From Stenotrophomonas sp. MMGLT7 (GTDB lineage: Bacteria > Pseudomonadota > Gammaproteobacteria > Xanthomonadales > Xanthomonadaceae): DNA of 64,000 bases. The notes below the pieces were generated by a model. That model was given only the letters and a program-made list of their open reading frames with translations, was not told the DNA's origin and searched no databases. This document shows positions 34,208 through 44,287 of the stretch, one piece after another; position 1 is the stretch's first letter, and every line of letters starts with the position of its first letter. The stretch is taken from assembly GCF_021168555.1 (NCBI RefSeq), contig NZ_JAJOZS010000004.1, positions 248,001-312,000 of the forward strand, written 5' to 3'. Position numbers and translations under genes: made by a program.

Positions 34208-35101
34208 TCACCCCGGCGTGACCAGGTGCGCGGCCAGGTAGTCGAGGAACGTGCGCACGCGCGGGGCCAGGTGGCGGCTGTGCGGATAGACCGCGTGCAG
34301 CGGCGCGGCCGGGATCGGGTAGTCGGCCAGTACCTGCACCAGCCGTCCCGCCTCCAGGTCCTCGGCCACGTCCCAGATCGACTTGCGCGCGATGCCGTGT
34401 CCATCCAGCGCCCAGCGATGCACGACCTCGCCGTCGTTGGCCGCCAGCCGCGCGACGATCCGCAGCGTCACCGGGTTCTCGCCCTCGAAGCGCCAGTCGG
34501 CCTGGGCCTGCAGCCCGATGTGCAGGCAGCGGTGGGCGAGCAGATCGGTCGGATGGGCAGGCACGCCGTGGCGCTGCAGGTAGGCCGGGGACGCGCACAG
34601 CACGCGATGGTTGGGCGCCAGCGGCCGCGAGATGTACGACGAATCGTCCAGCCCGCCGAAGCGGATGGCCACGTCGGTGCCCGACTCCACCAGGTCGAGC
34701 AGCGCGTCGGTGAGGTCGAGCTGGGTGTGCAGGCCGGGATGCAGGGCGCTGAAGTCCGCCAGCAGGGGGGCGATCCGCCGCCGTCCCAGCGCGAGCGGCG
34801 CGGTCACCCGCAGGTTGCCCGACACGGTGGCGCTCTGCCGCGACAGCTGCTGCTCGACCTGCTCCAGGTCGGCCAGGACCTGCAGCGCGCGCCGGTAGAG
34901 CAGTTCGCCCTCCTCCGTCAGCGACTGCCGCCGCGTGGTCCGCCGCAGCAATCGCACCCCCAGGCAGGCCTCGAGGTGGCGGAGCCTGCGGCTGGCCGCC
35001 GGCAGGGTGATCCCGGTCGCGCGCGCCGCCGCGGACAGCGAACCGGCGTCCACGACGCTTACGAACAATCGCAACGAAGCAAGGTCATCGATCGCCATCA
35101 T
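34208..35101 (-). CDS. LysR-family regulator of the divergent oxidoreductase cluster
   Basis: A 297-residue LysR protein of the CrgA/DmlR-like branch: LRLFVSVVDAGSLSAAARAT and PAASRRLRHLEACLGVRLL in the HTH, then an effector domain with RFGGLDDSSYISRPLAPNHR. Two adjacent ATGs (35101 and 35098) are possible starts. It is divergent from the Tat-signal aldo/keto reductase gene with an AT-rich 106-nt spacer, the usual layout for a LysR regulator and its target. Confidence 0.87.
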   Translation of the reverse strand: MMAIDDLASLRLFVSVVDAGSLSAAARATGITLPAASRRLRHLEACLGVRLLRRTTRRQSLTEEGELLYRRALQVLADLEQVEQQLSRQSATVSGNLRVTAPLALGRRRIAPLLADFSALHPGLHTQLDLTDALLDLVESGTDVAIRFGGLDDSSYISRPLAPNHRVLCASPAYLQRHGVPAHPTDLLAHRCLHIGLQAQADWRFEGENPVTLRIVARLAANDGEVVHRWALDGHGIARKSIWDVAEDLEAGRLVQVLADYPIPAAPLHAVYPHSRHLAPRVRTFLDYLAAHLVTPG

Positions 35102-35207: not shown

Positions 35208-36134
35208 ATGCCATCCCGACGTCGCTTCCTCTCCGGCCTTGCACTGGCTTCCGCAAGCCTCGCCTTCGCCCGTCCGTCGCTGTCGCTGGCGGCCGCCCCG
35301 GCGGGCTCCAACGCCCTGCAGACCCGGCCGATCCCCTCCAGCGGCCAGCGCCTGCCGGTGATCGGCATGGGCAGTTCGGGCAGCTTCGAGGTCGGCGCCG
35401 GCGCCGCCGAGCGCGATCCGCTGAAGGAGGTGCTGCGGCGCTTCTTCGCCGGCGGCGCCACGGTGATCGACACCGCGCCCGGCTACGGCAGCGCCGAAGG
35501 CGTGATCGGCGACCTGGTCGCGGAACTGCAGCTGCGGCCGCGCACGTTCCTGGCCACCAAGATCGGCGCCACCGGGCGCGAGGCCGGGCTGGCGCAGTTC
35601 CAGCGCTCGCTGCAGCTGCTCAGGACCGACAAGGTGGAACTGCTGCAGGTGCACAGCCTGCAGGACTGGCGCACCCAGTTCGCGCTGATCGAGGAACTGA
35701 AGGCGCAGGGCAAGACCCGCTACACCGGCCTGACCCATTTCGTGGACGGCGGCCACGACGAACTGGCCGAGGTGGTGCGTGCGGTCAAGCCGGACTTCCT
35801 GCAGGTCAACTACTCGGTGGTCTCGCGCAACGCCGAGCGGACGGTGTTCCCGGTCGCGCAGGAACTGGGGGTGGCGGTGCTGATCAACCGCGCCTTCGAG
35901 GACGGCAAGCTGTTCTCGCAGGTGCAGGGCAAGGCGCTGCCGGCGTGGGCGGCGGAGGCCGGCATCACCTCCTGGTCGCAGGCGTTCCTCAAGTTCGCGC
36001 TGAGCCATCCGGCGGTGACGGCGGTGATCCCGGCCACCGGCCGCCCCGACCGCCAGAGCGACCAGCTGCTGGCCGGCCACGGCCCGGACCTGAGCGAGCA
36101 GCAGCGCCAGTCCCTGATCGCACTGTTCGCCTGA
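35208..36134 (+). CDS. Aldo/keto reductase with twin-arginine signal peptide
   Basis: A 308-residue AKR. The N-terminus MPSRRRFLSGLALASASLAF is a classic Tat signal (SRRRFLSG). The catalytic tetrad is intact: Asp88 (VIDTAPG), Tyr93, Lys118 (ATKIG) and His149 (QVHSLQD). The enzyme should be folded with its nicotinamide cofactor before export. The ATG at 35208 follows AAGGAG. It starts the cluster under the divergent LysR gene and is followed after 10 nt by a carrier gene. A soluble AKR without export is the alternative if the Tat signal is not used. Confidence 0.88.
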   Translation: MPSRRRFLSGLALASASLAFARPSLSLAAAPAGSNALQTRPIPSSGQRLPVIGMGSSGSFEVGAGAAERDPLKEVLRRFFAGGATVIDTAPGYGSAEGVIGDLVAELQLRPRTFLATKIGATGREAGLAQFQRSLQLLRTDKVELLQVHSLQDWRTQFALIEELKAQGKTRYTGLTHFVDGGHDELAEVVRAVKPDFLQVNYSVVSRNAERTVFPVAQELGVAVLINRAFEDGKLFSQVQGKALPAWAAEAGITSWSQAFLKFALSHPAVTAVIPATGRPDRQSDQLLAGHGPDLSEQQRQSLIALFA

Positions 36135-36144
36135 GGCCGCCGCG

Positions 36145-37512
36145 ATGAACACGCGGCCATCGAACGGCAACGCCTTCGTGCGCCTGGTCTCGCGCCTGTT
36201 CGACGTGGCGCCGGGCGAGGCGCCGGCGGTGGCGGCCGGGCTGGTGATGTTCTTCCTGCTGTTCGCCGGCTACTTCATGCTGCGGCCGGTGCGCGAGACC
36301 ATGGGCGTGGCCGGCGGCGTGGAGAACCTGCAGTGGCTGTTCACCGGCACCTTCGTCGCCACCCTGGTGGCGTTGCCGCTGTTCGGCTGGCTGGCCTCCA
36401 GGGTCTCGCGGCGGCGGATCGTGCCGTGGACCTACGCGTTCTTCGTGGTGAACCTGCTCGGCTTCGCCGCCGGGCTGGCATGGTCGCCGGACAGCGTGTG
36501 GGCCGCGCGTGCGTTCTACATCTGGCTGTCGGTGTTCAACATGCTGGCGATCTCGCTGGCCTGGAGCGTACTGGCCGACGTGTTCGCCACCACCGAGGCC
36601 AAGCGCCTGTTCGCGCTGATCGCCGGCGGCGCCAGCCTGGGCGGGCTGGCCGGGCCGATCCTCGGCACCGTGCTGGTGGCACCGCTGGGACACGCGGGAC
36701 TGCTGGTGCTGTCGGCGGCGCTGCTGGCGATCAGCGCCGGCGCCGCGGTCTGGCTGCATGCCTGGCGCGACCGCAATCCGCTGCCGGCCGGCAGCATCGC
36801 CGACAGCAGCGAACAGCAGCGGCGCCGGCCGCTGGGCGGCAACCCGTTCGCCGGCGCCACCGCGGTGTTCCGCTCGCCCTACCTGCTGGGCATCGCCGCG
36901 TTCGTGGTGCTGCTGGCCAGCGTCACCACCTTCCTCTACTTCGAGCAGGCGCGGATGGTGGCAGAGCACTTCCCCGACCGTACCCGCCAGACCCAGGTGT
37001 TCGGCCTGATCGACACCGTGGTGCAGACGCTGTCGCTGCTGACCCAGTTCTTCCTGACCGGGCGCATCGCCAAGAAGCTGGGCGTGGGCGTGCTGCTGAC
37101 GGTACCGGCGCTGGCGATCGCCGCCGGCTTCCTGTGGCTGGCGTTGGCGCCGGTGTTCGCGGTGTTCGTGGTGGTCATGGTGGTGCGCCGCGTGGGCGAG
37201 TACGCGCTGGTGCGGCCCGGCCGCGAGATGCTCTACACGGTCATGCCGGCCGAGCAGAAGTACAAGGCCAAGAACTTCATCGACACGGTGGTCTACCGCG
37301 GCGGCGACGCCGTCAGCGGCTGGGTCAAGCGCGGCCTGGACCTGATCGGCGAACATCCGGCGCTGGCGATGTTCATCGGCGCCGCGATCGCGCTGGCCTG
37401 GGCGGGCGTAGGCGGCGGCCTGGGGCGCTGGCAGCGCCGGCTCGAGCAAGCGGAGCGGGACGGACGATCGCCGCCGCCGTCACCGGCGACCACGCAGGAG
37501 CGGCCGGCATGA
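36145..37512 (+). CDS. ATP/ADP-antiporter-like (Npt1/Npt2-like) MFS carrier
   Basis: A 455-residue carrier with about 12 membrane spans. FFLLFAGYFMLRPVRETMG, VENLQWLFTGTF, NMLAISLAWSVLADVF and AKRLFALIAGGASLGGLAG fit the group often annotated as AAA-family ATP:ADP antiporters or Npt1/Npt2-like nucleotide transporters. Real substrates of these free-living bacterial members are unproven. It lies 10 nt after the Tat-AKR gene and is probably co-transcribed. Confidence 0.7.
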   Translation: MNTRPSNGNAFVRLVSRLFDVAPGEAPAVAAGLVMFFLLFAGYFMLRPVRETMGVAGGVENLQWLFTGTFVATLVALPLFGWLASRVSRRRIVPWTYAFFVVNLLGFAAGLAWSPDSVWAARAFYIWLSVFNMLAISLAWSVLADVFATTEAKRLFALIAGGASLGGLAGPILGTVLVAPLGHAGLLVLSAALLAISAGAAVWLHAWRDRNPLPAGSIADSSEQQRRRPLGGNPFAGATAVFRSPYLLGIAAFVVLLASVTTFLYFEQARMVAEHFPDRTRQTQVFGLIDTVVQTLSLLTQFFLTGRIAKKLGVGVLLTVPALAIAAGFLWLALAPVFAVFVVVMVVRRVGEYALVRPGREMLYTVMPAEQKYKAKNFIDTVVYRGGDAVSGWVKRGLDLIGEHPALAMFIGAAIALAWAGVGGGLGRWQRRLEQAERDGRSPPPSPATTQERPA

Positions 37513-37615
37513 AGCCATCACCTCGCCGAACACGGCGGCCGCCGTCCCGTGTCGCCATGGCGTCCGCCGCCGGCACTGGCAGCGGGCGGATCGTACATTC
37601 CTGCGGAGACTCACG

Positions 37616-38584
37616 ATGACCACCGGCAATGAACCCGGCAATGAACAAAGACGTTCGCTGATGATCGGCGGCCTTGCCGCGGCCGCGGGGATCGCCGCCC
37701 TGGGCACGGGTGCCGCCGCCGCGCAGGCGCCGTCGCGACCGGCGCCGGAGCGGCTGCCGCTGGCGGGCAGGGTCGCGTTCGTCACCGGCGCCGCTCGCGG
37801 CATCGGCCGCGCGAGCGCGCTGGCGCTGTCCCGCGCCGGTGCCCGCGTCGCCCTGGTCGACATCGGCGACGCCGACGCGATGCTGTCCGAGATCGGCTAT
37901 CCGCTGGCGTCGCGCGAGGAACTGGAGGCAAGCGCCGCCGCGGTGGTGGCGGCGGGAGGCGAGGCGATCCCGCTGCTGGCCGACGTCCGCGACATCGCGC
38001 AGCTGCGCGCGGCCGTGGACGAGACGCTGCGCCGCTTCGGCGGCATCGACATCGTCGCGGCGATCGCCGGCGTCGGCGTCCAGGACGACGACTTCGCCCA
38101 CTACGATCCCGAGCGCACCCGGCACGTGATCGACGTCAACGGCGTCGGCGTGCTGAACACCGTGCACGCCGCCTGGGAACCGCTGAAGCGTTCGGCCGGC
38201 GGCGGACGGGTGGTGGTGCTGAGTTCGCAGGCCGCGCGCATCGGCGAGGCGCTGCCGGCCTATGGCACCTCCAAGTTCGCCGCCACCGGCGTGGTGAAGA
38301 ACCTGGCGGTCGCGCTCGGCCCGGACAACATCCGCGTCAACGCGCTGGCCCCGAGCATGGTGGAGACCGGGCTGCCGTACTTCCAGAACCGGCTGCCGCG
38401 CAACGAGGCATCGCGGCGCAGCCTGACCGAACGCCTGGGAAGGAACTTCGTCCTGCCCCTGCAGATGCTGGACGTGGACCTGGTGGCCGAAGGCATCGTG
38501 ATGCTGGCCGGCCCCATGACCGAGGCGACGACCGGCATCACCTTCGACATCAACGGCGGGCTGACCGCGCAGACGCCATCCTGA
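37616..38584 (+). CDS. SDR with Tat-like signal and nicotinoprotein-type insertion
   Basis: A 322-residue classical SDR. Residues 11-38 (QRRSLMIGGLAAAAG onward) look like a twin-arginine signal. TGAARGIG (57-64) binds the dinucleotide; Ser203/204, Tyr216 and Lys220 (YGTSK) are catalytic. After the second beta strand an insertion (IGYPLASREELEASAA, about 93-108) resembles the YPMAT-EDL insert of mycofactocin-associated SDRs such as carveol dehydrogenase, which hold NAD without releasing it. That would let the enzyme work outside the cytoplasm. Signal and insert are visible; tight cofactor binding is inferred. Confidence 0.8.
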   Translation: MTTGNEPGNEQRRSLMIGGLAAAAGIAALGTGAAAAQAPSRPAPERLPLAGRVAFVTGAARGIGRASALALSRAGARVALVDIGDADAMLSEIGYPLASREELEASAAAVVAAGGEAIPLLADVRDIAQLRAAVDETLRRFGGIDIVAAIAGVGVQDDDFAHYDPERTRHVIDVNGVGVLNTVHAAWEPLKRSAGGGRVVVLSSQAARIGEALPAYGTSKFAATGVVKNLAVALGPDNIRVNALAPSMVETGLPYFQNRLPRNEASRRSLTERLGRNFVLPLQMLDVDLVAEGIVMLAGPMTEATTGITFDINGGLTAQTPS

Positions 38585-38689: not shown

Positions 38690-39409
38690 ATGTCTAGTTC
38701 CTTTTCCGGACAACGCGTCCTGGCCGTCGGCGGCAGCTCGGGCATCGGCGAGGCCGTCGCCACGGCGTTCGCCGGGGCCGGCGCGCAGGTCACCATCGCC
38801 TCGCGCAGCCAGGCCAAGCTGGACGCCGCCGCCGGCCGCATCGGCCACGACGTGCGCACGGCGGTGCTGGACACCAGCGACGACGCGGCGGTGGAAGCGT
38901 TCTTCGCCGGCGCCGGCAGCTTCGACCACGTCGTCGTCAGCGCCGCGCAGACGCCGGGCGGACCGGTGCGCCAGCTTCCGCTGGAGGATGCGTACAAGGC
39001 CATGCAGAGCAAGTTCTGGGGTGCCTACCGGGTGGCGCGTGCGGCCGGCATCGCCGAGCGCGGGACGCTGACCTTCATCTCCGGCTTCCTCAGCGTGCGC
39101 CCGGGCAACTGGGTGCTGCAGGGTGCGATCAACGCCGCGCTGGAGTCGCTGGGCCGCGGCCTGGCGCTGGAACTGGCGCCGCAGAAGGTCCGCGTCAACA
39201 CCGTCTCGCCGGGCATGATCGCCACCCCGCTGTGGGGCGGGATGGACGAAGCCGCGCGCCAGGCCATGTACGACAAGGCCGCGGCCACGCTGCCGGCGCG
39301 GGTGATGGGGCAGCCGCAGGACATCGCCAACGCGGTGCTGTTCCTGGCCGCCACGCCCTATGCCACGGGCTCGACCGTGCTGGTCGACGGCGGCGGCGCG
39401 ATCGCATGA
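38690..39409 (+). CDS. SDR-fold protein lacking the catalytic Tyr/Lys
   Basis: A 239-residue SDR-fold protein with an intact glycine-rich VGGSSGIGE motif (13-21), the C-terminal LFLAATPYATGSTVLVDGGG and Ser131, but no YxxxK: the region reads SVRPGNWVLQGAIN. It is either a reductase with another proton donor or a non-catalytic binder. Its stop overlaps the start of an MFS pump gene (ATGA). Confidence 0.8.
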   Translation: MSSSFSGQRVLAVGGSSGIGEAVATAFAGAGAQVTIASRSQAKLDAAAGRIGHDVRTAVLDTSDDAAVEAFFAGAGSFDHVVVSAAQTPGGPVRQLPLEDAYKAMQSKFWGAYRVARAAGIAERGTLTFISGFLSVRPGNWVLQGAINAALESLGRGLALELAPQKVRVNTVSPGMIATPLWGGMDEAARQAMYDKAAATLPARVMGQPQDIANAVLFLAATPYATGSTVLVDGGGAIA

Positions 39410-40665
39410 GTGACGCATCCCTGCACGCGGCCGCCAGCGACAAGGCGCACGCCGACGGCACGCCCGCCCGCGGCGCACGCATGCCGCCGGCGATCTGGGC
39501 GCTGGCGCTGGGCACCTTCAGCATCGGCGTCACCGAGTTCGTGGTCGCCGGGCTGCTGCCGCTGGTGGCCGACGAGTTCGGCATCTCGGTGTCGCTGGCC
39601 GGCAACCTCGCCACCAGCTACGCGCTGGGCGTGTTCTTCGGCGCCCCGGCCGTGGTCATCCTCGGCAACCGGCTGCCGCGCAAGGTGCTGCTGGTGCTGG
39701 TGATGGGCCTGTTCGTGCTCGGCAACCTGGTCACCGCCGCGGCGCCGGGGTTCGGCTGGGCGCTGGTCGGGCGGGTGATCACCTCGATGACCCACGGCGC
39801 CTTCGTCGGCATCGGCGCGATCATCGCCAGCGCCCTGGTGGCGCCGGAACGGCGCGCCACCGCCATCGCGCTGATGTTCACCGGCATGACCCTGGCCAAC
39901 CTGGTCGGCATCCCCGCCGGCACCTGGCTCGGCCAGGCGGTGTCCTGGCGCGCCACCTTCTACGCGATCGCCGCGATCGGCGTGGCGACCGCGCTGGCGA
40001 TCCTGGTCTGGGTACCGGGCGACGGCCAGCGCCGCAATCCGCCGCGCCTGGCACGCGAGCTGGCGGCCTTCGCCGACCGGCGGGTGCTGATGTCGATGGC
40101 GATCACCGTGCTCGGGCCCGCCGCATTCTTCACCTCGATCACCTACATCGCGCCGATGATGCGCGAGGTCGCCGGCTTCGGCGAGAACGGCGTGAGCGGC
40201 ATCCTGTTCCTGTTCGGGCTGGGCCTGTTCCTCGGCAACCTCGCCGGCGGCAAGCTCGCCGACCGCGCGCTGATGCCGGTGCTCTACGCCACGCTGGCCG
40301 GCCAGGCGCTGGTGTTGCTGGCCTTCTACTTCCTGGCCGAGAGCCGGGTGGCCTCGGCGATCTGCGTGTTCCTGATGGCGGCCTTCGGCTTCGCCACCGT
40401 CTCGCCGATCCAGAAGCTGGTGATGGAAAAGGCCGCCGCCGCGGGCGCGCCGAACCTGGCCTCGTCGGTCAACATCGGCATGTTCAATCTCGGCAACGCC
40501 ATCGGCGCGGCCTTCGGCGGCTTCGTGATCGCGCACGGCTTCGGGCTGGCATCGCCGAACTGGGCCGCGGCGCTGCTGTCGACCGCGGCGCTGGCGGTGG
40601 CCCTGTGGCTCGGCCGCGGCGAGCGCCGCGGCGGCGACCTGTCCGTGCCGGCGAACGCGAGCTAG
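39406..40665 (+). CDS. MFS drug/sugar efflux carrier (AraJ/DHA1 type)
   Basis: A 419-residue, 12-span MFS protein with IGVTEFVVAGLLPLVADEF, GRVITSMTHGAFVGIGAIIA and VAPERRATAIALMFTGMTLA, typical of the DHA1 AraJ/PbuE group that exports sugars, nucleosides or drugs. The start at 39406 overlaps the stop of the SDR gene, so the two are translationally coupled. Confidence 0.88.
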   Translation: MSDASLHAAASDKAHADGTPARGARMPPAIWALALGTFSIGVTEFVVAGLLPLVADEFGISVSLAGNLATSYALGVFFGAPAVVILGNRLPRKVLLVLVMGLFVLGNLVTAAAPGFGWALVGRVITSMTHGAFVGIGAIIASALVAPERRATAIALMFTGMTLANLVGIPAGTWLGQAVSWRATFYAIAAIGVATALAILVWVPGDGQRRNPPRLARELAAFADRRVLMSMAITVLGPAAFFTSITYIAPMMREVAGFGENGVSGILFLFGLGLFLGNLAGGKLADRALMPVLYATLAGQALVLLAFYFLAESRVASAICVFLMAAFGFATVSPIQKLVMEKAAAAGAPNLASSVNIGMFNLGNAIGAAFGGFVIAHGFGLASPNWAAALLSTAALAVALWLGRGERRGGDLSVPANAS

Positions 40666-40707
40666 GGCGCCACACCGACACCACCCAAGACCCAGGAGAT
40701 GTACCGC

Positions 40708-40869
40708 ATGGAATCCCGGATCGACACGCCACGCAGATCGCCGCCGGCCGCGTCCGGCACGCGCCGGACGCCCGGCATTTCCCATGTGGTCGCCTGTGCG
40801 CGTATCCAGCGCCGGCCGCTTCCGGCACGCCCCCGCGGGCCGCTAGCGGACTCGCCTGACCGGCGCTAG
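40708..40869 (+). CDS. Possible small ORF (53 aa), doubtful
   Basis: An ATG at 40708 lies 9 nt after AGGAG and opens a 53-codon frame (MESRIDTPRRSPPAAS...), Arg/Pro-rich and without resemblance to anything I know. The leader CCCAGGAGAT also precedes the next gene (40896), so this could be a leftover of a duplicated gene start. It is kept only because the ribosome-binding site is good. Confidence 0.2.
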   Translation: MESRIDTPRRSPPAASGTRRTPGISHVVACARIQRRPLPARPRGPLADSPDRR

Positions 40870-40909
40870 CCGCGCCGCGCCTTCCCCGTTCCCACCCAGG
40901 AGATTGCCC

Positions 40910-41695
40910 ATGTCCAGACTGCCACACCTCCCCGCCCTGGCCGCCGCGACCTCGTTCGCCCTGCTGGCCGCCTGCTCCGGCCCCGAGCAGGGCAGCGCCG
41001 CCGCCCCGCCGCCTGCCGCGACCGAGTCCGCGGCGGCGCCGGGCGATGTCGCCGAGGCACAGGACATCGCGCTGTTCGGCACCATCTCGCTGCGCCCGGA
41101 CACCTACGAGACCTTCGTCGCGGTGCTGGGGGAGAACGTGCGTTCCTCGCGCCAGGAACCGGGGAACGTGTCCTTCGAGGTGTTCCGCCCCGAGGACGGT
41201 TCGCCGACGCTGCTGCTGTTCGAGCGCTGGAAGGACCAGGCCGCGATCGACACGCACATGCAGCAGCCGAACCTGAAGGCGGTGATCGAGGCGGTGCGGT
41301 CCACCGGCGCGGACGCGTCGGAAACGCACGAGCTGGTCGAAGTGCAGCCTTCCGGCGCCGCCAGCCGCCGCGCCCCCGCCGATCCGGCGACCTCGCGCAA
41401 CGTGCTGGTGGTGCTGAAGGTCAAGCCCGAGGCCGAGGAGACCTTCCTGCAGGCCTGGCGCGACGTGTTCCCGCATGCGCGCGCGGCACCGGGCAACGCG
41501 GTGTTCGAGATCTACCGCGACACCAAGACGCCGCAGACCTACGTGCTGATCGAACGCTGGGACAGCGCCGAACAGCACGAGGCGCACCTGGCCCAGCCGT
41601 ACTCGCTGGCGCTGGACGAGGTGCTGCCGGATACGCTGGCCGCGCCGATCGTCAACGGCCAGAACCGCTTCCTCGCCCACGGCGTGCTCGACTGA
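40910..41695 (+). CDS. Lipoprotein with two antibiotic-biosynthesis-monooxygenase (ABM) domains
   Basis: A 261-residue lipoprotein: lipobox LLAAC with Cys22, a Pro/Ala linker, then two ABM (dimeric ferredoxin-like) domains at about 50-125 and 165-255. Each has the strand pattern NVSFEVFRPEDGSPTLLLFE / NAVFEIYRDTKTPQTYVLIE followed by W and a His-containing helix. ABM proteins act as cofactor-free monooxygenases or haem/quinone binders. A membrane-anchored tandem form is unusual and fits the periplasmic theme of the cluster. Confidence 0.78.
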   Translation: MSRLPHLPALAAATSFALLAACSGPEQGSAAAPPPAATESAAAPGDVAEAQDIALFGTISLRPDTYETFVAVLGENVRSSRQEPGNVSFEVFRPEDGSPTLLLFERWKDQAAIDTHMQQPNLKAVIEAVRSTGADASETHELVEVQPSGAASRRAPADPATSRNVLVVLKVKPEAEETFLQAWRDVFPHARAAPGNAVFEIYRDTKTPQTYVLIERWDSAEQHEAHLAQPYSLALDEVLPDTLAAPIVNGQNRFLAHGVLD

Positions 41696-41851
41696 CGCGC
41701 CCGGCCGCCGTCCCGTGCGGCGGCCACGCCTCCCCGGATGGAGGCAATGGCGACGGCGCGGCCTTCCGCGCCTGCAGCCCACTCCCGCAACCGGTGAACG
41801 GTCGCAGTGCTTGCGACCTCTGCAAAGACGAGAACCGAGTAGCCAACCCTC

Positions 41852-42907
41852 ATGAGCACGAACGAAAAGAAGAAGGCCCTGGTGGCCGGCGGCCTGGGCG
41901 TGATCGGCCGCAACCTGGTCGAGTACCTGGCGCAGCAGCCGGACTGGGAGGTGCTGGGACTGTCGCGGCGCGCCGCACCGGACGGCACGCCCGGGGTCCA
42001 CCTGCAGGTGGACCTGCTCGACCCGGCCGACGCCCGCGCCAGGCTCGGCGGCCTGGAGGGCGTCACCCACGTCTTCCACGCCGCCTACCAGGAACACGAC
42101 GATCCGCATGCGCTGGTCGACGCCAACCTCGGCATGCTGCGCAACCTGGTGGAGGCAGTGTCGCCGTCGCCGTCGCTGCGGCGCGTGGTGCTGTACGAAG
42201 GGGCCAAGTACTACGGCGCGCACCTGGGCGCGTTCGCGACCCCGGCGCGCGAGGACGACCCGCGGCACATGCCGCCGAACTTCTACTACGACATGCAGGA
42301 CTGGCTGCTCGGCACGGCCGCGGGCCGGCCGTGGGACGCGGTGGTGCTGCGCCCGGACGTGGTCTGCGGCTTCGCCATCGGCAACCCGATGAACCTGGCG
42401 ATGGTGATCGCGGTCTACGCCAGCATCAGCAAGGCGCTGGGCCTGCCGCTGCGCTTCCCCGGCACCGCCACGTGCTACGGCAAGCTCGCCCAGGTGACCG
42501 ACGCGGCGCAGCTCGCGCGCGGGTCGGTCTGGGCCGCCACCGAGGGCCGCGGCGGCGAGGCCTACAACCTGACCAACGGCGACGTGTTCCGCTGGTACCA
42601 GGCCTGGCATGCGATCGCGCGCTGGTTCGACATGGAGGTCGGCGAGCCGCAGACGATCCCGCTGGCGCAGTTCATGGCCGACAAGGCGCCGCTGTGGCAG
42701 TCGCTGGTGCAGCGGCACGGCCTGCAGCCGGTGCCGTACGACCAGATCGCCGCCTGGGGCTTCGGCGACTTCATCTTCCGTTGCGACTGGGACGTGATAT
42801 CCAGCACCACCAGGATCCGCCAGGCAGGTTTCCACGATGTGGTCGACAGCACGCAGATGTTCCTGCGCCTGTTCGACGAGTTCCGCACCCGCAAGGTCAT
42901 CCCGTGA
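41852..42907 (+). CDS. PRISE-like SDR (progesterone-5-beta-reductase/iridoid-synthase-like)
   Basis: A 351-residue extended SDR. GGLGVIG (13-19) binds NAD(P)H. GVTHVFHAAYQ, YEGAKYYG with Lys119, PPNFYYDMQDWL with Tyr145/146 and TNGDVFRWYQAWHAIARWF follow plant progesterone 5-beta-reductase, whose enzymes reduce the C=C bond of enones using a Lys and a Tyr in these places. Predicted activity: NADPH-dependent enone reduction. No signal peptide is seen, so it is cytosolic. Confidence 0.82.
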   Translation: MSTNEKKKALVAGGLGVIGRNLVEYLAQQPDWEVLGLSRRAAPDGTPGVHLQVDLLDPADARARLGGLEGVTHVFHAAYQEHDDPHALVDANLGMLRNLVEAVSPSPSLRRVVLYEGAKYYGAHLGAFATPAREDDPRHMPPNFYYDMQDWLLGTAAGRPWDAVVLRPDVVCGFAIGNPMNLAMVIAVYASISKALGLPLRFPGTATCYGKLAQVTDAAQLARGSVWAATEGRGGEAYNLTNGDVFRWYQAWHAIARWFDMEVGEPQTIPLAQFMADKAPLWQSLVQRHGLQPVPYDQIAAWGFGDFIFRCDWDVISSTTRIRQAGFHDVVDSTQMFLRLFDEFRTRKVIP

Positions 42908-42967
42908 GCACCCCCGCGCCCGGCCGCTGACCGCTCCCGAAGCAGACACAACCGAACAGGAGGTCCC

Positions 42968-44287
42968 ATGCCCATGTCCACTCGCTCGCCCGTGCTCGCC
43001 GGCCTCTGCGCACTGTGCCTGGCGGCCCCGCTCGCCCACGCCGACACCGCCACCCCGCCCGGCAGCGGCGTCGGCCCCGGACCGGAGGTGGCCGCGCGGC
43101 TGCCGGCACCGGCGGACAACGCCGACACCGAGGTGCGCGCGCAGGTGGTCGGCTGGCCGGCGGACCGTGCGCCGCTGGCGCCGGAGGGCTTCCGCGTCAC
43201 CCGCTATGCCGAGGGGCTGGACTACCCGCGCTGGATGCACGTGCTCGACAACGGCGACGTACTGGTGGCCGAGGCGCGCTCCAATCCGCGCCGCGGCCAG
43301 CGCGAGGTGCTCAACGCCGCCCGCTCGCACGGTCCCAGCGCCAACCGCATCACCCTGCTGCGCGATGCCGACGGCGACGGCGTTCCCGAAGTGCGCAAGG
43401 TGTTCGCCGTCGGCCTGAACCAGCCGTTCGGCATGCAGCAGCTCGGCGACCGGCTGTACGTCGCCACCACCGACGGCGTCTGGCGCTTCCCCTACGCCGA
43501 TGGCGAGACCCGGCTGCGGCAGGACGAGGGCGAGAAGATCCTCGACCTGCCGGCCGGCGGCTACAACAACCACTGGACCCGCAACGTGGTCGCCCGTCCC
43601 GATGGCAGGAAGCTGTACGTGACCGTCGGCTCGGCCAGCAACAACGGCGAGTACGGCCTGGACGTGGAACGCCGCCGCGCCGCGATCCTGGAGATCGACC
43701 CGGACGGCGGCAACGAGCGCATCTTCGCCTCCGGCCTGCGCAACCCCAACGGCATCGACTTCGAGCCGGCGACCGGCGCGCTGTGGACCTCGGTCAACGA
43801 GCGCGACCTGATCGGCGACGAACTGGTGCCCGACTACATCACCCGGGTCCAGGACGGCGGCTTCTACGGCTGGCCGTATGCCTACTTCGGGCCCAACGTC
43901 GATAGCCGGGTGCCACCGCGCCCGGACCTGGTCGCGCGCACCCTCGTGCCGGACTTCGCGGTGGGCGCGCACACCTCGGCGATGAGCCTGCACTTCTACC
44001 GCGGCAGCAAGTTCCCCGAGGCCTACCGCGGCGGCGCCTTCGTGGCCCTGCACGGCTCCTGGAACCGCAGCACGTTCTCCGGCTACCAGGTGCTGTTCGT
44101 GCCGTTCCAGGACGGCAGGCCGAGCGGCCAGGCGCAGACCTTCCTGACCGGCTTCGTCCGCGGCGACGGCCCGCAGGTCCACGGGCGGCCTACCCACATC
44201 CTGGGCCTGGCCGACGGCTCGCTGCTGTTGACCGACGACGCCGGCGACACCATCTGGCGGATCGCCTACGCCGGTGACGAGGCATGA
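42968..44287 (+). CDS. Exported sorbosone-dehydrogenase-type (PQQ-like beta-propeller) protein
   Basis: A 439-residue secreted protein with signal peptide MPMSTRSPVLAGLCALCLAA and a six-bladed propeller of the glucose/sorbosone dehydrogenase family: RVTRYAEGLDYPRWMHVL, QPFGMQQLGDRLYVATTDGV, GGYNNHWTRNV, LRNPNGIDFEP and FVALHGSWNRS. Members use PQQ to oxidise sugars in the periplasm. No PQQ synthesis genes are in the window. AGGAGG (42958-42963) supports the ATG at 42968. Confidence 0.85.
   Translation: MPMSTRSPVLAGLCALCLAAPLAHADTATPPGSGVGPGPEVAARLPAPADNADTEVRAQVVGWPADRAPLAPEGFRVTRYAEGLDYPRWMHVLDNGDVLVAEARSNPRRGQREVLNAARSHGPSANRITLLRDADGDGVPEVRKVFAVGLNQPFGMQQLGDRLYVATTDGVWRFPYADGETRLRQDEGEKILDLPAGGYNNHWTRNVVARPDGRKLYVTVGSASNNGEYGLDVERRRAAILEIDPDGGNERIFASGLRNPNGIDFEPATGALWTSVNERDLIGDELVPDYITRVQDGGFYGWPYAYFGPNVDSRVPPRPDLVARTLVPDFAVGAHTSAMSLHFYRGSKFPEAYRGGAFVALHGSWNRSTFSGYQVLFVPFQDGRPSGQAQTFLTGFVRGDGPQVHGRPTHILGLADGSLLLTDDAGDTIWRIAYAGDEA

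Follow-up and report, generated by a model that had tools for sequence, protein, structure and literature searches.

A carrier of the NTT superfamily linked to exported NAD(P)-dependent oxidoreductases in Pseudomonadota, and its proposed role in supplying nicotinamide dinucleotides to the periplasm

How an enzyme that depends on NAD(P)(H) could work outside the cytoplasm is the question raised by positions 35,208 to 38,584 of a 64,000-nucleotide stretch of DNA from Stenotrophomonas sp. MMGLT7 (contig NZ_JAJOZS010000004.1; the whole stretch is referred to here as the window). To our knowledge, the periplasm has no usable NAD(P)(H) pool in the textbook view, and exported nicotinamide-dependent enzymes are hard to explain. 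Three genes at this site encode an aldo-keto reductase (AKR) with a twin-arginine translocation (Tat) signal, a protein resembling nucleotide carriers and a short-chain dehydrogenase/reductase (SDR) with a Tat signal, an observation of the first-pass annotation that is confirmed by Pfam matches and by the N-termini. That annotation proposed that the trio might be a periplasmic system of enzymes exported with their cofactors pre-loaded. Its interpretation is partly supported: the unit is an exported NAD(P)-dependent oxidoreductase together with an NTT-like carrier, and neither the trio nor a mycofactocin system. We lean slightly towards a two-gene module in which the exported enzyme, here the Tat-AKR, is accompanied by an inner-membrane carrier of the NTT superfamily that would exchange NAD(P)(H).

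The strong and recurrent association of the carrier with exported NAD(P)-dependent oxidoreductases extends far outside this genome. Among the genomes sampled, which are those of Pseudomonadota, it is present in 78 of the 149 genomes of the window’s family at E ≤ 1e-60, and an AKR lies within the 1.5 kb flank of the carrier in 29 of the 30 close carrier loci of that family. The pair recurs outside the family, in other gammaproteobacterial and other Pseudomonadota genomes, often in reversed order with overlapping ends; the AKR is upstream of the carrier in 21 cases and downstream in 25. At 103 carrier loci, the close neighbours of the carrier (same strand, within 300 bp) were compared with genes at least three genes away. 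Five NAD(P)-dependent oxidoreductase families (AKR, SDR, epimerase-type, F420-reductase-type and D-2-hydroxyacid dehydrogenase) account for 68 of the 123 close neighbours and for 12 of the 653 distant genes. Since these families were picked from the carrier neighbours themselves, which introduces a seed bias, the count was repeated with Pfam on the neighbours and on random controls. Aldo_ket_red is found in 46/123 neighbours and 0/119 controls, and adh_short in 12 and 2, respectively, while F420_oxidored (5 neighbours) and 2-Hacid_dh (3 neighbours) are both outside the 25 commonest control families. When the loci found through the AKR are dropped, the five families still make up 61 of 113 neighbours, compared with 12 of 584 controls. 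The linkage holds at 15/18 and 24/30 loci in the upper carrier score classes, which are nearest to the window’s carrier. On a carrier tree built with FastTree the partner labels change 25 times in total, with at least five changes for SDR and at least two for epimerase on supported branches, all of these counts being approximate.

The AKR is absent or supplemented at a number of loci, where the carrier adjoins other exported nicotinamide-dependent enzymes. SDRs occur at L180, L182, L187, L176 and L097, epimerase-type partners with Tat signals at L089, L102, L104 and L186, and exported D-2-hydroxyacid dehydrogenases at L092 and L190. An F420-reductase-type protein with a Tat signal is present at L183–L185 and L085, and in some loci it sits between the AKR and the carrier. 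In independent records, the carriers of the Azotobacter plasmid pAcX50f and the Pantoea plasmid pPAT9B04 are paired with a Tat-signal F420-reductase-type protein, and that of Cupriavidus metallidurans CH34 with a Tat-AKR. Export-type N-termini are a common feature of these neighbours: the epimerase-type proteins all have Tat signals (4/4), the F420-type proteins have Tat signals in four of five cases and a Sec-like signal in the fifth, and two of the three hydroxyacid dehydrogenases have an export-type N-terminus. Most carrier-linked SDRs also have one, while the distant control SDRs are almost all unsignalled. Sec-type signals are found on the partners L068_8, L092_3, L176_5 and L187_5.

The AKR of the window matches Aldo_ket_red in Pfam and has a twin-arginine N-terminus, MPSRRRFLSGLALASASLAFARPSLSLAAA. 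Of 46 carrier-adjacent AKRs, 45 score as Tat; the RRxFL-type motif is kept in the orthologues, many of which add a lipobox (LAAC). Because it is kept in this way, the Tat signal of the AKR is not a chance resemblance. The catalytic tetrad D88/Y93/K118/H149 is present in 44–46 of the 46 aligned AKRs, and ordinary AKR chemistry is therefore expected. A crude Tat-signal filter is passed by four of the 50 genes called in the window, of which the AKR and the SDR are credible and the other two implausible, and the host genome encodes TatC (236 bits). Judged by their N-termini, both enzymes look like Tat-exported proteins.

The middle protein is supported as an NTT-superfamily carrier by its sequence and its modelled fold, and nucleotide transport is predicted for it. 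Its match to the TLC ATP/ADP transporter family (PF03219) scores 41.3 bits, over the Pfam cut-off of 21, which bears out its earlier placement in a nucleotide-carrier group. A profile of the carrier family searched against the PDB matched only the two NTT sequences present there, with E values of 3.9e-23 and 2.8e-17. The AlphaFold2 model (pLDDT 93.2) has the 12-helix NTT fold, and its top four PDB folds are NTTs (9j3n, 9j3l, 9j3m and 9j3o; TMq 0.65–0.79), the closest being ATP-bound Chlamydia pneumoniae NTT1 and ATP- or ADP-bound AtNTT1 (TMq 0.74–0.79). Sixteen residues are invariant across 61 carriers, including R47, P48, R50, D290, R360, E361, K376, D380 and R385, and K374 is nearly so. The R47-P48-V49-R50 segment aligns with LRDTK of C. 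pneumoniae NTT1 and the R360...R385 signature with its KEMAY..KVKGKAAID...R segment. Most of the invariant charged residues align with like residues of NTT1, R50 and R360 being Lys in NTT. Within the NTT family, NTT4 takes up NAD+ in E. coli and has been reported to transport NADH (PMC3831814). NTT genes are known to be widespread in free-living bacteria, where they have no clear role (PMC5381601).

The first-pass intuition about the carrier is thus better supported than the sequence alone allowed, and its function can be argued from the company it keeps. What the five partner families have in common is a nicotinamide dinucleotide; we know of no substrate common to them and of no single fold. 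Since the cofactor is their common denominator, exchange of NAD(P)(H) over the inner membrane is the function we infer for the carrier. Dinucleotide exchange is the best explanation because a homologue of nucleotide carriers is tied to enzymes whose signals would place them in the periplasm. The carrier would swap nicotinamide dinucleotides between cytoplasm and periplasm, either reduced for oxidised NAD(P) or a dinucleotide for another nucleotide, and the exported enzyme could thereby act on a substrate in the periplasm, a compartment that does not itself produce NAD(P)H. Various genomes would plug various exported oxidoreductases into the same carrier. In the present genome, a Tat-SDR with a mycofactocin-type insertion that may bury NAD follows the pair as an addition, and another copy of the pair elsewhere has a Sec-type SDR after it. 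The transported molecule, the direction of transport, the cofactor used (NAD or NADP), export itself and the physiological substrate are what we infer from the gene content, the carrier family and fold, the export-type N-termini, the conserved linkage and the partner switching. In a wider and more tentative form of the proposal, several lineages of Pseudomonadota may possess a periplasmic NAD(P)(H)-dependent redox metabolism supplied through a dedicated dinucleotide carrier of the NTT type, to which unrelated oxidoreductases with export signals have been coupled again and again.

The cargo of such a carrier might instead be an organic compound that the exported enzymes consume or form, such as an acidic or phosphorylated carbonyl compound; the enzymes would then each leave the cytoplasm with a single, firmly bound NAD(P) or act as dismutases. 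The carrier is an MFS protein, the fold search with its model also returned MFS transporters of other solutes, invariant basic residues would suit any organic anion, and Tat is able to export cofactor-loaded enzymes. Against this, the nearest folds and sequences are those of nucleotide carriers, five enzyme families are common to the carrier and switch on its tree, and partners with Sec-type signals cannot be pre-loaded. We regard transport of a substrate or product as unlikely, though not negligibly so.

The Sec-type partners also bear on the claim of pre-loading. Proteins exported by Sec cannot leave the cell interior with a bound cofactor. These partners must therefore obtain their cofactor outside, and pre-loading is insufficient for them. 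In its full form the claim is that the AKR and the SDR are exported through Tat with permanently bound NAD(P), which an external redox partner recycles, and that the carrier either is there incidentally or recovers nucleotide that has leaked out. The Tat signals on both enzymes agree with such a nicotinoprotein system, and so does the insertion of the SDR, which resembles that of SDRs with non-exchangeable NAD (PMC5264612). However, pre-loading would make the carrier needless, and no other component of the module is as constant as the carrier; conservation of the SDR was not found, no mycofactocin biosynthesis genes score over the cut-off, and among the aligned carrier-linked SDRs the insertion is seen in the window SDR only. 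The case for pre-loaded export is weakened, and we consider it improbable as an explanation of the module.

The SDR itself matches adh_short and adh_short_C2 in Pfam and has the twin-arginine-type N-terminus MTTGNEPGNEQRRSLMIGGLAAAAGIAALGTGAAAAQA; this Tat signal stays a prediction, seen in this genome only. Its insertion, IGYPLASREEL, aligns with that of mycobacterial mycofactocin-type, carveol-dehydrogenase-like SDRs (VPYPLATPEEL in 3sx2; also 3t7c and 3oec), as the first-pass annotation had suggested, and is absent from the other aligned carrier-linked SDRs. In the mycobacterial enzymes such insertions have been reported to enclose NAD and render it non-exchangeable, in species that also bear mycofactocin genes (PMC5264612). 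The mycofactocin-type SDRs 3s55 and 3sx2 are among the best folds for the AlphaFold2 model of the window SDR, which is of moderate confidence (pLDDT 74). The anticipated profile match falls short: TIGR03971, which describes mycofactocin-coupled SDRs, is the best NCBIfam model at 198.9 bits, below its cut-off of 300. The mycofactocin genes sought in the host genome did not appear over cut-off either. The best MftC match has 96 bits (cut-off 265) and the best MftD match 257 bits (cut-off 471), and sub-threshold matches of these kinds also occur in 14/14 and 13/14 control genomes, respectively; MftA gave no match in a search that had no positive control. With the SDR below the TIGR03971 cut-off and none of MftA, MftC and MftD above theirs, a mycofactocin system is rejected. 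If the insertion buries NAD as its sequence suggests, the window SDR may be a mixed case.

The linkage of the AKR and the carrier, which was expected to extend to the SDR, does not do so. No relatives of the window SDR were found at E ≤ 1e-60 among 60 related genomes, at E ≤ 1e-40 in 369 gammaproteobacterial genomes or at E ≤ 1e-36 in 339 Pseudomonadota genomes (about six first-look candidates being scored per genome in the latter two samples), nor at 1e-30 in plasmids. A genome-wide contig scan with SDR peptide patterns, which were poor patterns, was uninformative and returned only distant SDRs. A conserved AKR-carrier-SDR trio is rejected at these thresholds, and as far as the sampling goes the SDR appears to be a genome-specific addition behind the AKR-carrier pair.

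Several points weigh against the exchange of NAD(P)(H) by this carrier. NTTs move many nucleotides, and what this carrier transports could be ATP/ADP, another phosphorylated metabolite or the organic substrate of the enzymes. Pre-loading is conceivable for those partners that are exported by Tat. The carrier scores higher with MFS_1 (62.7 bits) than with the TLC family. The linkage fades in distant carriers (below about 300 bits), to 17/38 and 2/10 loci. In a separate carrier clade (35–40% identity), GMC oxidoreductase and/or DUF1304 genes are found nearby, and hardly any carrier adjoins an exported NAD(P) enzyme (L098, L099–L103, L107, L130, L131, L133, L191, L194–L196 and L199). There are single exceptions as well: a Pantoea carrier whose neighbouring AKR has no signal, a cytosolic-looking SDR (L088_6) and a Comamonadaceae carrier without any oxidoreductase partner. 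Signals were judged by home-made rules rather than by SignalP, and the gene calls are our own. Some of the loci are related, so that p-values overstate independence and are not taken literally.

Some carrier loci have distinctive gene settings. On the C. metallidurans CH34 megaplasmid (L134, 1421953–1433071) and at L084, the Tat-AKR and the carrier lie directly 5′ of genes resembling glutathione-dependent formaldehyde dehydrogenase and S-formylglutathione hydrolase, a setting that hints at aldehyde detoxification. On Pantoea pPAT9B04 (L136, 6260–6940), an in-frame upstream start of PAT9B_RS27865 adds a Tat signal (MSLSRRQLIKLAAITGAMS), and the annotated start is probably too late. On Pantoea pPAT9B03 (L138), the neighbours of a carrier homologue are a gene of the membrane PQQ-glucose-dehydrogenase type and an AKR that lacks a signal peptide, which makes this locus an exception. 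In the subclade of L106, L192 and L197, a MipA/OmpV-like outer-membrane protein comes after the carrier; in L192 and L197 an SDR is next in line, and that of L192 has a signal-like N-terminus. At L078, two AKR copies surround a LytTR-type two-component system and adjoin the carrier. On Azotobacter pAcX50f (L137, 9269–10152), about 3 kb separate the carrier from a toxin/antitoxin pair of the RES-type NAD+ phosphorylase kind, which may be a coincidence.

The host genome is 4.27 Mb in size with a high GC content, and the window is located on its contig 34 (Table 1). The AKR stop and the carrier start are separated by 10 bp, and the carrier stop and the SDR start by 103 bp. Promoter and terminator patterns at the locus are not above chance. 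A second AKR-carrier pair is present on contig 1 (316750–319012), followed by an SDR with a Sec-type signal; in this region (L068, C1:308500–328000) a two-component system comes after the Sec-type SDR. The ABM lipoprotein and the sorbosone-dehydrogenase-type protein downstream, which the first-pass annotation had suggested as possible members of the same pathway, could not be tied to the module, and neither could the PRISE gene. They are left out of it together with the other genes at 38690–44287, yet co-transcription with it is conceivable.

The make-up of the window also invites a reading in which these are ordinary neighbours in a detoxification cluster that is under LysR control and contains oxidoreductases and MFS exporters, the export signals and the NTT-like carrier having no common role. 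A divergent LysR gene, a cytosolic SDR and an AraJ/Cmx-like MFS protein do lie beside the three genes, and the downstream genes resemble a mixed cluster. However, these downstream genes are not seen as a set at the other AKR-carrier pairs examined, and both the linkage and the export signals greatly exceed the background at these same loci, across many families and in both gene orders. We consider the reading as ordinary neighbours quite improbable.

Table 1. Positions of the genes and sequence elements in the window
Feature	Position	Strand	Basis or remark
LysR-type gene	34208-35101	minus	divergent from AKR gene
Tat-signal AKR, 308 aa	35208..36134	+	PF00248 98.8 bits; tetrad intact; carrier pairing conserved
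AKR Tat signal peptide (predicted), SRRRFLS motif, approximate boundary	35208..35297	+	RRxFL-type motif kept in orthologues
12-helix carrier of NTT superfamily, resembling ATP/ADP translocases, 455 aa; candidate NAD(P)(H) exchanger	36145..37512	+	PF03219, NTT profile matches, fold
Carrier R47-P48-V49-R50, basic motif of helix 1	36283..36294	+	R47, P48 and R50 invariant in 61 carriers
Carrier R360-E361...K374, K376, D380, R385, charged signature of C-terminal half	37222..37299	+	conservation in 61 carriers
Tat-signal SDR, 322 aa, apparently genome-specific partner of AKR-carrier pair	37616..38584	+	PF00106/PF13561
SDR Tat-type signal (predicted; QRRSLMIGG), approximate boundary	37616..37729	+	sequence, motif heuristics
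SDR insertion GDADAMLSEIGYPLASREEL at NAD site, approximate limits	37865..37924	+	alignment to 3sx2/3t7c/3oec
Cytosolic SDR downstream of trio	38690-39409		
AraJ/Cmx-like MFS downstream of trio	39406-40665		
Two-domain ABM lipoprotein downstream of trio	40904-41695		
PRISE gene downstream of trio	41852-42907		
Sorbosone-dehydrogenase-type gene downstream of trio	42968-44287		

If the proposed exchange takes place, a carrier that is genetically tied to exported nicotinamide-dependent enzymes in many lineages would explain how those enzymes work, and the NTT-like proteins of free-living bacteria would have a function. A single carrier gene and a single enzyme would then be enough for a direct test of whether the periplasm contains NAD(P)H. 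In the papers searched, a module of exported oxidoreductase and carrier was not found described, nor did the phrases tried lead to any paper about NAD(P)H pools in the periplasm.

Among known systems, the closest relatives of the carrier are the NTT/TLC ATP:ADP and nucleotide translocases (PF03219), such as C. pneumoniae NTT1, AtNTT1 and Protochlamydia NTT4, to which it is homologous by Pfam score, PDB profile, fold and charged signature. However, it belongs to a distinct clade, is about 20% identical to the solved NTTs and also matches MFS_1; it occurs in apparently free-living bacteria with full-size genomes, where it adjoins exported oxidoreductases, and its substrate is proposed from that setting. 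The window SDR resembles the mycofactocin-coupled SDRs in its best NCBIfam model, in the insertion at the NAD site and in its closest folds, which include members of that group. It differs from them in its sub-threshold score, its Tat signal and a host genome in which the mycofactocin genes do not pass their cut-offs.

Two further systems address the same difficulty by other means. In enzymes of the glucose-fructose oxidoreductase type (Gfo/Idh/MocA), Tat export of the folded and pre-loaded protein is a known route to periplasmic nicotinamide-dependent reactions. The enzymes here belong to the AKR and SDR families (Pfam finds these domains and no Gfo/Idh/MocA domain in the AKR or the window SDR), they have a linked carrier, and some of the partners are of Sec type. 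The NAD carriers of mitochondria, plastids and peroxisomes are SLC25-type proteins that give their compartment its NAD pool. The carrier described here would solve the same problem, but it is an NTT/MFS-type protein and would do so in the bacterial inner membrane.

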